The position numbers were made by a program, and so were the translations under genes. The notes under the pieces are model-generated. The model was not told the DNA's origin, made no database searches, and saw nothing but the letters and a program-made list of their open reading frames with translations. Below, one piece after another: positions 13,053 through 38,298 of a DNA stretch of 38,560 nucleotides (the first letter of the stretch is position 1; each line of letters opens with the position of its first letter). Source of the DNA: Runella sp. (GTDB lineage: Bacteria; Bacteroidota; Bacteroidia; Cytophagales; Spirosomataceae); NCBI RefSeq assembly GCF_027484545.1, contig NZ_JAIXST010000171.1, positions 1 through 38,560 of the forward strand, written 5' to 3'.

Positions 13053-15011
13053 ATGATTACTGAACCTTTAATGATTCAAACACAAGTCGCCGACAATGGT
13101 ATGTCAAACGGCATGGTAGGTCAGGCTATCACCTACGAAAAAATTCCAACGCAGATTTATGCCGACTCTAAAGACGCTTCTCGGGCTGTAGCACAAGAGA
13201 TTGCAGACTTGATTCGCAGTAAGCAGAAAGAAGGCAAAAATTGCATTCTTGGTTTAGCAACAGGCTCTTCGCCGAAGACAGTTTATGCCCAACTCATTAA
13301 AATGCACCGTGAAGAAGGGCTAAGTTTCAGAAATGTAGTTTCGTTCAATTTGGACGAATACTATCCTATGCAGCCTGATTCTATTCACAGCTACGTGCGC
13401 TTTATGCGGGAGCAGTTATTTGACCACGTTGATATGCCTAAGGAAAATTATTTTATTCCTGACGGAACCGTTCCCCCAGCTATGATTAATGATTTTGCCC
13501 AACGCTACGATAATAAAATCAATGCAATGGGAGGGATTGATTTTCAATTGTTGGGGATTGGTGGAAATGGCCACATTGGATTCAATGAGCCGGGGTCACT
13601 CATCAACTCGCGTACTCGTCTGATGACACTTGACCATTCTACCCGTGCAGCTACTGCAATGGAATTTGGAGGGCTTCATAATGTTCCTAAGAAAGCCATT
13701 ACCATGGGGGTTTCGACCATTATGAATGCCAAAAGAGTTGTTCTATTGGCATGGGGAGAGCGCAAAGCTACGATGATCAGATCATCCGTCGAAGGGCCGG
13801 TGACAGAATTAGTGCCCGCCTCTTATTTGCAGGCACATCCCAACGTTGCCTTTTTTGTAGATGTTCGGGCTGCTTCTGAACTCACCCGGGTCAAAACTCC
13901 TTGGTTGGTAGATACCGTTGAGTGGAATAATTCCATGATTAAAAAGGCAGTTACTCACCTTTCTTTGACACTCGATAAGCCCATCCTGAAGTTAACCACT
14001 AAAGATTACAACGACAACGGGATGAGCGATATGCTGGCGGCACACGGTTCAGCGTATGATATCAATATCAATGTTTTCAATCAATTACAACATACCATTA
14101 CGGGTTGGCCAGGAGGTAAACCCAACGCAGACGATACCTATCGTCCGGAGCGTGCACATCCAGCTAAAAAACGGGTAATTTTGTTTAGCCCTCACCCTGA
14201 CGATGATATTATCTCCATGGGAGGCACTTTCCAACGTTTGGTAGACCAAGGTCATGAAGTACACGTAGCTTACCAAACCTCGGGCAACATTGCCGTAGCT
14301 GATGATGAGGCGTTTCGTTTTATTGACTTTGTGGTGGATTACAACCAGAGATTTCAAATTGAAAGTCCTGCTGCAATGAAGATTTTTGAAGACGCTAAAG
14401 CGTTTTTGAAGAAGAAAAAAGACAGTGAGATAGATACTCCTGATGTTCGCTACGTAAAAGGACTGATTCGTCGCGGAGAAGCAAAAGCCACCTGTCGTTT
14501 TGTAGGAACTGAACATTTTCACTTTTTGGACATGCCCTTCTACGAAACTGGGACTGTTCAGAAAAAACCCATCGGTACAGAAGACGTAAAAATCATTGCC
14601 GAGTTAATAGAAAAAGTAAAACCTCATCAAATCTACGCCGCAGGAGACTTTGCCGACCCACATGGTACGCACAAAGTGTGTTGGGATGCCATCGAAGGGG
14701 CTTTGAGTCAATTGAAGCACAAAAACTTCATGAAGGATTGTTGGGTATGGCTATACCGCGGCGCTTGGGCGGAGTGGGATATTCACGAGATTGAAATGGC
14801 AGTACCAATGAGCCCTGACCAGGTAATGAAAAAACGAATGGGTATTTTCAAACACCAATCGCAAAAGGACGGGGTAGTGTTTCAGGGTGATGACTCCCGT
14901 GAATTCTGGCAACGTGCCGAAGAACGAAACAGCGGTACAGCCCACCTCTACGATCAGCTCGGATTGGCTGAATATGAAGCCATGGAAGCCTTTGTAAGAT
15001 GGCACTTTTAA
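13053..15011 (+). CDS. nagB: Glucosamine-6-phosphate deaminase fused to a PIG-L/LmbE deacetylase domain
   Basis: This 652-residue protein has two parts. Residues ~30-300 are a NagB-type isomerase/deaminase that converts glucosamine-6-P to fructose-6-P and ammonia. It shows GLATGSSP (67-74), FNLDEYYPM (98-106, catalytic Asp) and GNGHIGFNEP (171-180). Residues ~370-652 are PIG-L/LmbE-like, with the zinc-site motif HPDDD (381-385) and a later DPHGTHKVC (HxxH-type) segment. That suggests N-deacetylation of a GlcNAc-like substrate before deamination, but the second activity is inferred. Single-domain NagB is ~260 residues, so this is the long form known from Bacteroidota. The start may be any of several early Met codons (1, 7, 17 or 21). 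It ends 29 bp before a large inverted repeat shared with the convergent oxidoreductase. Confidence 0.92.
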   Translation: MITEPLMIQTQVADNGMSNGMVGQAITYEKIPTQIYADSKDASRAVAQEIADLIRSKQKEGKNCILGLATGSSPKTVYAQLIKMHREEGLSFRNVVSFNLDEYYPMQPDSIHSYVRFMREQLFDHVDMPKENYFIPDGTVPPAMINDFAQRYDNKINAMGGIDFQLLGIGGNGHIGFNEPGSLINSRTRLMTLDHSTRAATAMEFGGLHNVPKKAITMGVSTIMNAKRVVLLAWGERKATMIRSSVEGPVTELVPASYLQAHPNVAFFVDVRAASELTRVKTPWLVDTVEWNNSMIKKAVTHLSLTLDKPILKLTTKDYNDNGMSDMLAAHGSAYDININVFNQLQHTITGWPGGKPNADDTYRPERAHPAKKRVILFSPHPDDDIISMGGTFQRLVDQGHEVHVAYQTSGNIAVADDEAFRFIDFVVDYNQRFQIESPAAMKIFEDAKAFLKKKKDSEIDTPDVRYVKGLIRRGEAKATCRFVGTEHFHFLDMPFYETGTVQKKPIGTEDVKIIAELIEKVKPHQIYAAGDFADPHGTHKVCWDAIEGALSQLKHKNFMKDCWVWLYRGAWAEWDIHEIEMAVPMSPDQVMKKRMGIFKHQSQKDGVVFQGDDSREFWQRAEERNSGTAHLYDQLGLAEYEAMEAFVRWHF

Positions 15012-33021: not shown

Positions 33022-33882
33022 TTACTTTTTCTTGTTGCGATTATTGGCTCCAGCTCCTCGGTTTTTTCCAGCACCAGGTCCATTTCCGGCACCGCGGCGA
33101 TCACCTCCACCGTCACGATCTCCACCGCCACCGCCTCTGCGACGATCTCCGTCTCCGCCACCACCTCTGCGACGATCTCCACGATCTCCGCCTCGGTCAT
33201 TACCACCACTGCGTTCAGCTGATGCTGCACCGCCACTAATTGGTGATAAATCGCGCTTTCCAAAGATTTCGCCTTTGAATATCCATACTTTGATACCTAT
33301 CTTGCCATAGACTGTCAAGGCTTCTGAAATAGCGTAGTCAATATCAGCACGAAGTGTATGAAGAGGTACACGACCTTCTTTGTATTCTTCGGTACGTGCC
33401 ATCTCGGCACCGCCTAAACGACCTGATACGCGAACTTTGATACCTTGAGCACCCACTCTCATTGCTGAAGAGATAGCTTGCTTCATTGCACGACGATAAG
33501 AGATACGGTTTTCCAATTGTTGAGCAATCGACTCTCCAACCAATTTAGCATCAATTTCAGGACGCTTAATTTCGTAGATGTTGATTTGAATGTCTTTACC
33601 CGTAATTTTCTTTAACTCTTCCTTAATTTTATCAACCTCGTTCCCACCTTTACCGATTACGATACCAGGACGAGCCGTGTGAATCGTAAGAGTGATACGC
33701 TTCAAAGTACGTTCAATGACTACTTTGGAGATTGCACCTTTAGGAATACGAGCGGAAATATATTTGCGAATCTGCTCGTCTTCAATCAGCTTATCGGCAA
33801 ACTCACGTCCACCATACCAGCTTGACTCCCAACCACGGACTATACCGAGTCGCAGACCTATAGGATTAACTTTCTGTCCCAT
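33022..33882 (-). CDS. rpsC: 30S ribosomal protein uS3 with a Gly/Arg/Asp-rich C-terminal tail
   Basis: Residues 1-215 are standard uS3: [20 protein letters not shown], a KH domain ([26 protein letters not shown]) and the C-terminal fold ending near GKRDLSPI. uS3 forms the mRNA entry site and has helicase activity. Residues 216-286 form a 71-residue low-complexity tail rich in Gly, Arg, Asp and Asn: repeated DRRRGGGG-type units (for example [20 protein letters not shown]), then a basic end, NRNKKK. RGG-like tails bind RNA. The corresponding DNA is GC-rich and locally repetitive. Length of 286 compares with ~210-235 in most bacteria. Confidence 0.96.
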
Positions 33883-36381: not shown

Positions 36382-37002
36382 TTACTTTTCAATGATTACA
36401 AACGAATTCTTCGCACCTGGCACTGAGCCACTGATAACGACGAGATTCTGCTCAGGGATTACCTTCAACACTTTAAGGTTCTGAACCTTAACTCGGTTAT
36501 TACCCATACGACCTCCCATGCGAATACCTTTAAATACACGCGAAGGAAATGAACAGGCACCAATTGAACCAGGGTGACGTGCACGGTTATGTTGTCCGTG
36601 CGTTTGACCACCTACTCCACCGAAGCCATGGCGTTTAACAACACCCTGAAAACCTCGACCTTTGACAGTACCTACCACATCCACAAAGTCTCCTTCAACA
36701 AATACGTCAATTACAGAGAGCGCCTGACCAAGTGCGAGTTCAACTTCAAACTCTTTAAACTCAACCAATTTACGCTTAGGAGTTGTACCTGCCTTTTTAA
36801 AGTGACCCATGAGCGGCTGGGTCGTATGCTTTTCTTTTTTCTCACCGAAACCGAGTTGAACAGCTTTGTATCCATCAGTTTCTTCGGTTCTTACCTGTGT
36901 TACTACACAAGGACCAGCTTCAATTACTGTACACGCCAGAGCCTGCCCGTCCGCAGTGTACACGCTTGTCATCCCGATTTTTTTTCCTATTAAACCAGAC
37001 AT
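36382..37002 (-). CDS. rplC: 50S ribosomal protein uL3
   Basis: This 206-residue protein is one of the first to bind 23S rRNA and reaches the peptidyl-transferase centre. It shows [19 protein letters not shown], the loop [40 protein letters not shown] (holding the Gln that PrmB-type enzymes methylate) and [17 protein letters not shown]. It is the first gene of the cluster: rpsJ (uS10), which usually precedes it, is absent. It has two upstream promoters and a hairpin in between. Confidence 0.97.
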
Positions 37003-37050
37003 CTTTTTGATTTACAGCAGGTTATAAAATTTATTTTGTAAAACGGATTG

Positions 37051-37082
37051 CAAAGGTCGGCAATCTATTTTATTAATCCAAA
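37051..37082 (-). promoter_or_regulatory. Proximal promoter P2 of the rplC operon
   Basis: Coding strand: TTTG (37082-37079), 20 bp, then GACCTTTG (37058-37051), followed by C. It matches the Bacteroidota promoter at all but the first -7 base (G instead of T; second base A conserved). The leader to the rplC ATG would be about 45 nt. Confidence 0.6.
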
Positions 37083-37113
37083 TTACATCGATTTTTTATT
37101 TTCAAAACAGCAA

Positions 37114-37145
37114 TAAAAAAAGTCAGACGTTTTTACATCTGACTT
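37114..37145 (-). terminator. Intrinsic terminator in the rplC leader region
   Basis: AAGTCAGA (37120-37127) pairs perfectly with TCTGACTT (37138-37145) around a 10-nt loop, and the minus-strand transcript continues TTTTTTTATTG. Its orientation ends RNA that starts at P1, upstream of P2. It is located 112 bp before rplC. Confidence 0.8.
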
Positions 37146-37268
37146 CAGTTAATGTGGCACAGCTAATAAATTGCTAAACCAGATATTGAATTCAGATGCG
37201 GTTTCCTTTCGGACCTTCACCTAATTTGTATTTTCGTAATGAAATTATCAAACTGTCTTTTGAAAAGG
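37114..37268 (-). ncRNA. Predicted ~155-nt RNA or attenuated leader upstream of rplC
   Basis: A transcript from P1 would begin near 37268 and end at the terminator near 37114. It contains a GGUCC-GAAA-GGAAACC stem-loop (37215-37200) with a GNRA tetraloop. Directly after it comes GCAUCUGA (37199-37192), complementary to UCAGAUGU (37142-37135), which covers part of the 5' arm of the terminator. Pairing of these two would prevent the terminator from forming. It could be a stand-alone small RNA or a regulated leader for read-through into rplC. It has not been matched to any known family here. Confidence 0.45.
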
Positions 37269-37272
37269 CTCG

Positions 37273-37303
37273 CAAAGGTCTGCATTTTTTACTAAAAACA
37301 CAA
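37273..37303 (-). promoter_or_regulatory. Distal promoter P1 upstream of rplC
   Basis: Coding strand: TTG (37303-37301), 20 bp, then GACCTTTG (37280-37273), followed by C. The -7 element and spacing are the same as in P2, 222 bp downstream. The shared GACCTTTGC suggests both are used by the housekeeping sigma factor under the same growth control. Confidence 0.6.
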
Positions 37304-37440
37304 CCTATTTTATTATTTTTTTTACGAAATAATTTTTGATGTTTAATTTTGACACCAATCCATATAAATAAAGTAAGTGTGAAATATAAACCTTGGCACT
37401 ATTTTCGTTAATGTGAAATACGAGGACAAACCCGTAAAAT

Positions 37441-38298
37441 ATGGCAAATCTAAGAGTTCGATTGGCAATCATTTTGGTATGTGGGATCGCTTGTCAATCT
37501 ACTTTAGCGCAAACAAGGCGCAATAATATCTATCGCAACGTTCCCGCTTTTGGTGTTTTAAAACTTAGTTTTGGTACGGGTTTTTCCTATTATATAGGCG
37601 ATATGCGGGCTAAAACGGATCTTCGATTTATTCAGCCCCATTTGGCTGTGGCACTCAATTATCGGTTGGCAGAACGTTTTTCGGTAAGAGGTGAAGTAGA
37701 CCTGTATAGAATCTCTGGTAAACAGGCTGGTGGACCTATTTGGTACAACAACCTTTCTTTCCGTTCCGACAATGTCGCCGCTTATGGGGGTCTTCAATTT
37801 GATATTTTTCAGTACAGCGATGACCGCTTTTTGAAGCCTTATTTATTTGGAGGGTTAGGAATAACAGGAATTAATCCAAAGGCTAAATATGAGGGGAATT
37901 GGCAAAGTTTACCTCCGCTTATGACTGAAGGGGTGGCTTATAAGCGCAGTACACGAATTGGGATTTTGGGTTTTGGCGTTTCCTGGAAATATAACAATCG
38001 TTGGAATTTTGCCGTTGAATTAAGCGACAATTTTGCCAATTCAGATTATTTAGATGACGTAAGTACGGTTTATCCCAACCCTGCCGGCATGTCTGAATTG
38101 GCACTCAGGCTTTCAGACCGACGCCCTGAGCTCGACCCTGCCACATTGCCTGTAGGTTTCAGCGCACGAAATGACGCAGGCAATCAACGCGGAAATCCCA
38201 AAGTCAAAGATTCCTATGGATTTCTTTCCTTTCGAGCAGAGTATGTGATTGGGACACAGGCCAAAAGAGCCGAAAAACGGAAACTAAGGTGTTATTAA
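37441..38298 (+). CDS. Outer-membrane beta-barrel protein, DUF6089-like
   Basis: The 285-residue protein has a signal peptide (MANLRVRLAIILVCGIACQSTLAQ, cleavage near residue 24). Next comes a beta-rich sequence with GVLKLSFGTGFSYYIGDMRAKTDLRFIQPHLAVALNYRLAERFSVRGEVDLYRISG, LQFDIFQYSDDRFLKPYLFGGLGITGINPKAKYEG and a final strand GFLSFRAEYVIG. This resembles the DUF6089/OmpA-like barrels abundant in Bacteroidota, but the last 13 residues (QAKRAEKRKLRCY) are basic, so the barrel does not end in the usual aromatic residue. Function unknown. It is divergent from the ribosomal cluster and is monocistronic as far as can be seen. Confidence 0.75.
   Translation: MANLRVRLAIILVCGIACQSTLAQTRRNNIYRNVPAFGVLKLSFGTGFSYYIGDMRAKTDLRFIQPHLAVALNYRLAERFSVRGEVDLYRISGKQAGGPIWYNNLSFRSDNVAAYGGLQFDIFQYSDDRFLKPYLFGGLGITGINPKAKYEGNWQSLPPLMTEGVAYKRSTRIGILGFGVSWKYNNRWNFAVELSDNFANSDYLDDVSTVYPNPAGMSELALRLSDRRPELDPATLPVGFSARNDAGNQRGNPKVKDSYGFLSFRAEYVIGTQAKRAEKRKLRCY

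Follow-up and report, generated by a model that had tools for sequence, protein, structure and literature searches.

A conserved leader RNA before rplC in Spirosomataceae, probably a transcription attenuator of a ribosomal-protein operon

How does transcription reach rplC, which heads a long ribosomal-protein cluster in Runella sp., when an apparent terminator stands between the gene and a promoter upstream of it? In the 38,560-nt stretch of DNA that we analysed (contig NZ_JAIXST010000171.1, hereafter the window), a first-pass annotation had noticed two promoters facing rplC, a terminator between them and an upstream pairing that would exclude this terminator, and had offered two outcomes, a ~155-nt small RNA or a regulated leader. 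The sequence and its comparison among relatives favour the second: we put at roughly 0.8 the probability that this RNA is a cis-acting transcription attenuator, that is, a ribosomal-protein leader, of the rplC operon. Its elements, all on the minus strand, are as follows.

37272–37303, minus strand: predicted promoter P1 of the Bacteroidota type (TTG, 20 nt, GACCTTTGC), from sequence
37268–37115, minus strand: leader RNA before rplC, conserved across relatives
37192–37224, minus strand: anti-antiterminator hairpin, 33 nt (core model R2, MFE, pair counts)
37135–37199, minus strand: antiterminator hairpin (pair conservation, MFE, best pre-terminator fold)
37115–37146, minus strand: intrinsic terminator (terminator scan and covariation)
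37050–37082, minus strand: putative bypass promoter P2 (TTTG, 20 nt, GACCTTTGC), between terminator and rplC
37016–37021, minus strand: CCTGCT element, 19 nt before the rplC start, conserved with the leader
36382–37002, minus strand: rplC (uL3), open reading frame with PF00297

The twin promoter-like sites are present as first described, with a shared −7 element and a shared spacing. By sequence inspection P1 consists of TTG at 37303–37301, a 20-nt spacer and GACCTTTGC at 37280–37272, with a predicted RNA start at about 37268; P2 has TTTG at 37082–37079, again a 20-nt spacer, GACCTTTGC at 37058–37050 and a predicted start at about 37046. Both −7 elements read GANNTTTG, and the Bacteroidota −7 consensus is TANNTTTG; a simple sigma-70 scan, whose coverage this promoter type lies outside, listed neither site. 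Divergent from P1 is a gene at 37441–38298 whose product matches PF13505, an outer-membrane beta-barrel domain, at 29.1 bits (cut-off 28.7), and elsewhere in the window the open reading frame at 33022–33882, recognised as rpsC (uS3), ends in a long Arg/Gly/Asp-rich tail.

Four segments of the leader can form three helices, 1:2, 2:3 and 3:4, each of which excludes its neighbour. Segments 1 (UUAGGUG, 37224–37218) and 2 (CAUCUGA, 37198–37192) are the strands of hairpin 1:2, which contains a conserved internal loop, GAAGGUC (37218–37212) facing GAAACC (37205–37200), and is topped by a variable apical hairpin; in the antiterminator, GCAUCUGA (37199–37192) pairs over 8 bp with UCAGAUGU (37142–37135) and closes a linker helix; in the terminator, segments 3 (UCAGAUG, 37142–37136) and 4 (CGUCUGA, 37129–37123) pair within a hairpin at 37146–37119, after which come seven T at 37121–37115. 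The terminator and its T-run had been recognised in the first pass, with a stem given as 8 bp that the scan lengthens to 12 pairs. A GNRA-capped stem had also been described as abutting the antiterminator; the stem exists, but its 3′ strand is the antiterminator strand CAUCUGA itself, and there are therefore three, not two, mutually exclusive helices.

In the Runella sp. contig the MFE values are −9.6 kcal/mol for 1:2, −20.8 kcal/mol for 2:3 with the linker helix and −14.9 kcal/mol for 3:4, and the leader has a fold z-score of −2.73. Shuffled linkers offer a 7-bp partner in 3.9% of cases and an 8-bp partner in 1.1%; the single sequence is thus modest evidence for the pairing, as the first pass had cautioned in allowing that one complementary 7–8-mer could be chance, and the case therefore rests on relatives. 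Before the 3′ arm of the terminator has been made, the antiterminator belongs to the best fold of the Runella sp. transcript, and in equivalent transcripts of 105 of 108 leaders it lies at most 0.5 kcal/mol from the best fold; two of the three exceptions (L010 and L011) are leaders in which the script took the wrong segment 3, the alignment showing only TCAGRTG-type segments. Complete leaders are near balance, with hairpin 1:2 in 60, the antiterminator in 41 and neither in 7 of the 108, which is what a poised switch would look like in folding models, kinetics lying beyond their reach.

Relatives were sought with two covariance models, R1 of the whole leader (23 sequences) and R2 of the 37-nt core alone (37 leaders), both trained on these same leaders, so that the training rows match by construction. 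R2 found one copy of the core in the Runella sp. genome and a single copy in each of 108 of 200 sampled Spirosomataceae genomes, spread over 18 of 36 genera; in a sample of the phylum it matched 4 of 395 genomes, all of them Spirosomataceae. At E ≤ 0.001 R1 matched 121 of the 200 family genomes, its best 108, down to E 1.8e-8, being real leaders from the identical genomes that R2 had picked out. The matches inspected among the 13 further genomes, from three of them (L230–L232), proved to be terminator hairpins without the core, as did a second match (L229) in genome G011, and these weak matches were rejected as leaders. R1 matches outside Spirosomataceae reached E values down to 6.8e-6, and those of the outsider loci that were inspected, L035–L041, contain no rplC start. 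A DNA search of the 200 family genomes gave near full-length matches within the genus and, in other genera, short 91–97% matches to query positions 80–112, which is the hairpin.

The leader keeps its place. An exact pattern scan of named species genomes returned 85 loci, 77 of them before rplC, whose start lies 175–229 nt past the core; in two (L067 and L115) the piece ends short of rplC, and six (L071, L086, L130, L136, L137 and L143) come from unrelated organisms and have no rplC start in the locus, about the number expected by chance (around 5 by our own estimate). Among the family leaders 107 of 108 stand before rplC, with its start 175–235 nt past the core, the remaining piece ending too soon, and a terminator follows the hairpin in all 108 (that of L019 was mis-called by the script but is present). 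The core was not detected in 92 of the 200 family genomes, some of them incomplete; for the one Runella genome among these, no rplC was found either. A record titled Flavobacterium sp. SUN052 (NZ_JAPQNS010000010.1) has a Rudanella-like rplC locus; because its uL3 is 92% identical to that of a Rudanella, the record is probably mislabelled or mixed.

Rfam 15 yielded no match at its curated threshold in the window or in 20 related loci, and six matches, all far under their cut-offs, when 37000–37320 was searched at E values up to 10. A resemblance of the core to helix 8 of SRP RNA was set aside, as the best SRP-like match of the genome lies elsewhere; the probable SRP RNA of this genome (G000) is on contig C172 at 13480–13579, with 29.6 bits against an Rfam cut-off of 40.

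An alignment of relatives, suggested in the first pass as a check on conservation and covariation, finds the paired segments kept. Pairs were counted in an alignment to R1 of 100 leaders, the 108 less L198, L200, L207, L210, L211, L215, L216 and L225; one alignment (A3) has its Runella sp. row shifted by one base. Helices 1:2 and 3:4 keep 96.6% of their cells, and they covary, with both sides changed in 65 cells against 17.1 in shuffles, none of 500 shuffles reaching as high; the outermost pair of 1:2 is the weakest, being unpaired in 33 of the 100. For the antiterminator, CAUCUGA of the hairpin 3′ strand with UCAGRUG of the terminator 5′ arm, 698 of 700 pairs are kept across the 100 sequences, a count that depends on an alignment fitted to the hairpin-plus-terminator model; sliding the partner by 1–3 columns leaves only 22–37% of cells paired. 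In the two exceptions, L212 and L221, the last pair is lost and the helix is longer at its opposite end, by 6 and 5 pairs respectively. The claim that antiterminator and terminator exclude each other is borne out at the level of pairing.

Changes on both sides of the antiterminator are rare (1 of 700 cells): one sequence with C→U in segment 2 at column 75 has G→A in segment 3, and in L014 segments 1, 2, 3 and 4 have all changed. Letter shuffles between sequences keep 99.1% of pairs against the real 99.7%, and in the first 23 sequences, with the eighth pair included, the antiterminator did not beat shuffles; because shuffling hardly lowers the count, the support for this helix is conservation and an asymmetry of rates, not covariation. 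Of the 85 pattern loci, 71 contain the core and segment 3 together with no less than 600 nt of rplC; on an rplC tree of these named loci we counted 7 changes in segment 3 against 23 in segment 4 (p = 0.005). Rates were compared for these two segments alone, since parts of segments 1 and 2 are set by the pattern that retrieved the loci. Five of the seven segment 3 changes exchange A and G at the base whose partner accommodates both letters. A terminator mismatch is tolerated in 32 of 100 leaders opposite a segment 3 base that is paired in the antiterminator of all 100. Slow change in segment 3 and tolerated mismatches in the terminator are as expected of a segment with two partners, and judged across relatives the pairing is far beyond chance.

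The apical hairpin takes 70 distinct forms among 108 sequences, and its loop is not conserved, which makes the GNRA cap reported for Runella sp. incidental; 56 of the 70 forms nonetheless stay paired, against about 10.5 in shuffles. By length, 50, 37 and 21 of the 108 fall into the three reading frames. Because sequence and length vary freely over all frames while pairing persists, the apical hairpin is not coding, and a leader peptide through the core was rejected, reading frames not being kept there.

The role of the leader would probably be to match the supply of ribosomal proteins to need. The mechanism that follows is inferred as to ligand, direction of switching, promoter activity and termination in the cell. 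RNA polymerase that started at P1, or that in relatives entered from the rpsJ operon, would first make hairpin 1:2 with its conserved internal loop. If the hairpin were unheld, the emerging segment 3 would take segment 2 into the antiterminator and transcription would continue into rplC. Binding of a ligand, for which a surplus ribosomal protein from the operon is the likeliest candidate, would lock the hairpin, so that segment 3 would pair with segment 4 and transcription would stop at the T-run. P2, past the terminator, would give a basal supply of rplC that escapes this control.

We wondered what the ligand of such a switch might be, and whether an attenuator of the same shape could answer to something other than a ribosomal protein of the operon: a small molecule, a tRNA, an RNA-binding factor or the ribosomes on a leader peptide. 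What speaks for this is that we found no rRNA mimic: a two-part scan without weights, run on the 16S and 23S rRNA of E. coli, gave nothing above shuffles, and R2 run against the E. coli rrnH region and Spirosoma 23S (without roughly its first 430 nt) gave no convincing mimic, the best match (E 0.083) being on the strand opposite the rRNA and the rRNA strand giving E 1. Two look-alikes in E. coli 23S, at 625–635 (GAAGGGAAACC) and 777–796, were noticed after the fact and discarded, being not kept in Spirosoma, where the first reads GAAGCGAAAGC and the second ends in AAACU. Resemblance to the rRNA site of the protein, a trait frequent among ribosomal-protein leaders and not required of them, was thus not seen for the rplC leader in these rRNAs. 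Other traits of such leaders are present, namely a structured 5′ UTR element before ribosomal-protein genes, with a hairpin and a terminator supported by covariation, and, as in attenuators with an anti-antiterminator, three helices that exclude one another, the last of them an intrinsic terminator. The place before a ribosomal-protein operon fits a ribosomal-protein ligand, and the spread of apical hairpin lengths over the three frames tells against a leader peptide, so we consider a different kind of ligand improbable. As to which ribosomal protein, precedent from E. coli and from an archaeal candidate makes uL4 a tentative choice, conceivable and on balance unlikely. The motif ACATA, perhaps part of the ligand site, is found within 16 nt upstream of the core in 58 of the 71 named loci; it is absent from Runella sp. 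(37236–37225).

The E. coli S10 leader opens its operon, before rpsJ. The Spirosomataceae leader, unlike it, stands before rplC, either after rpsJ (50 of 71) or without rpsJ (21 of 71), in the named loci with 900 nt or more of upstream sequence, a length that 6 of the 77 do not reach, rpsJ being recognised by a sequence motif. Where present, rpsJ is directly upstream and ends 25–167 nt before the core. All 21 loci that lack rpsJ upstream show a P1-type promoter, as against 9 of the 50 that have rpsJ (Fisher 2.6e-11). Past the terminator, every one of 107 leaders and of 77 named loci has a TTTGC ahead of rplC, the nearest copy standing 51–109 nt from the gene in the 107; of 71 named loci, 64 have TANNTTTG in the P2 zone, and only 46 have a TTG in the −33 zone. 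In other families of the class the gap from rpsJ to rplC is only 11–75 nt in 25 of 29 genomes, too short to accommodate a leader; in this lineage the leader therefore arose between the two genes, by insertion or by growth. The presence of P1 where rpsJ is absent, together with the position of the leader between rpsJ and rplC, speaks for cis control of transcription into rplC.

These observations bear on the other outcome put forward in the first pass. In Runella sp., P1 and the terminator would release an RNA of ~154 nt that might stand alone and act elsewhere, with rplC driven by P2 alone, and the P2-like TTTGC found throughout the leaders would suit such a division. Against this, 41 of the 50 loci preceded by rpsJ lack a recognisable promoter for the RNA, which is always upstream of rplC where that can be checked (77 named and 107 family loci), and the terminator 5′ arm is held constant by the antiterminator pairing; of the two outcomes the leader therefore stands, and a small RNA seems very improbable. 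Slimmer still is the chance of a constitutive insulating terminator with a new promoter, P2, behind it and an incidental pairing with the hairpin, to which the terminator and downstream promoter-like site seen throughout and the short rpsJ–rplC gap of other families would lend themselves, but a plain terminator needs neither a conserved 37-nt core nor a constant 5′ arm, and a P1 that feeds the leader where rpsJ is gone would be needless. A further element accompanies the attenuator-like leader: all of 107 leader genomes carry CCTGCT 19–25 nt ahead of the rplC start, and none of 51 others does (0 of 29 from elsewhere in the class, 0 of 22 family genomes without the leader); at this place it would sit in both P1 and P2 transcripts.

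The rplC leader is a new ribosomal-protein leader family of a known mechanistic kind. The B. subtilis rplJL leader is described, in the accessible parts of the source, as an L10(L12)4 attenuator with an anti-antiterminator, an antiterminator and an intrinsic terminator (PMC4538822), and it likewise places three exclusive structures before a ribosomal-protein operon; it differs in operon, sequence and phylum, in having a leader peptide (PMC4538822) and, according to the portion available of another source, in the kink-turn of its ligand hairpin (PMC10931766). Unlike it, the rplC leader has a promoter-like site after the terminator. The E. coli S10 leader, as far as the latter source could be consulted, shares attenuation at an intrinsic terminator of a cluster with rplC and rplD, and differs in its mechanism, in which uL4 and NusA act at a paused hairpin (PMC10931766). 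An L4 leader candidate of Archaeoglobi also precedes rplC-rplD-rplW-rplB (PMC7247131); it is archaeal and rated borderline in the passages available, and we liken it by position alone. The same source, in the parts seen, lists L13, S4, S15 and S16 leaders in Bacteroidia or Flavobacteria in its Table 1 and L19 in its text, which belong to the same phylum and class of regulator and control other genes, and that table has no bacterial leader before rplC (PMC7247131). A 2024 survey gives an rpsJ motif from Peptostreptococcaceae, its accessible text mentioning neither Bacteroid- nor Spirosoma (PMC11109978).

The literature searched, mostly papers outside subscription, held no description of an rplC-operon attenuator in this lineage, and as far as these searches show the present one would be the first described. 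It amounts to a natural experiment, with the same switch placed behind rpsJ or behind its own promoter and followed, wherever this was checked, by a promoter-like site; its exclusive helices supply exact mutations to test, and its conserved loop an exact bait for the ligand.

What, then, precedes rplC in relatives without this leader, here called type A? We sought rplC in 23 of the 92 core-less family genomes and found it in 22, none of which has rpsJ within 900 nt upstream and 19 of which have TTTGC at most 150 nt from rplC. In these 22 genomes the position of the leader is taken by two further RNAs that are themselves conserved and structured.

~95–410 nt before rplC: type C RNA, 224–287 nt, in 10 of 22 (L272, L279, L281, L283–L289)
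~150–415 nt before rplC: type B RNA, in 12 of 22 (L268–L271, L273–L278, L280, L282)

Rfam had no match in the 20 of these 22 loci that were scanned, and under a strict hairpin-plus-T-run rule no terminator lies inside type B or type C, the one match (L283) being upstream of the RNA. Type A is a terminator-type attenuator in form, present in 18 of 36 genera, and type C reuses a closely similar loop in another architecture, with a GAAGUC/GAAACC hairpin, AAGGNAACAAGG and a final GUUG..CAACCNCUG hairpin. From the likeness of this loop to the type A core (GAAGUC in 8 of 9 and GAAACC in 9 of 9 aligned) we infer that the two loops may be homologous. The front end of rplC might then be a hot spot of regulator turnover, with leaders A, B and C built differently, a tentative idea to which we give a little less than even odds; if true, one binding loop would have been rewired between control outputs while the regulated operon stayed unchanged. 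Type B, found by motif in 11 of the 22 and by eye in L277, differs in architecture and is marked by GUUGGCAGAACU, GUGUCAGAACUGAUA, GAAUGCCCA and AUAUUAAGCUACACAAG. Both sides have changed in 10 of 27 predicted pairs of type B (11 of 12 aligned, L277 left out) and in 15 of 36 predicted pairs of type C (9 of 10 aligned, L285 left out).
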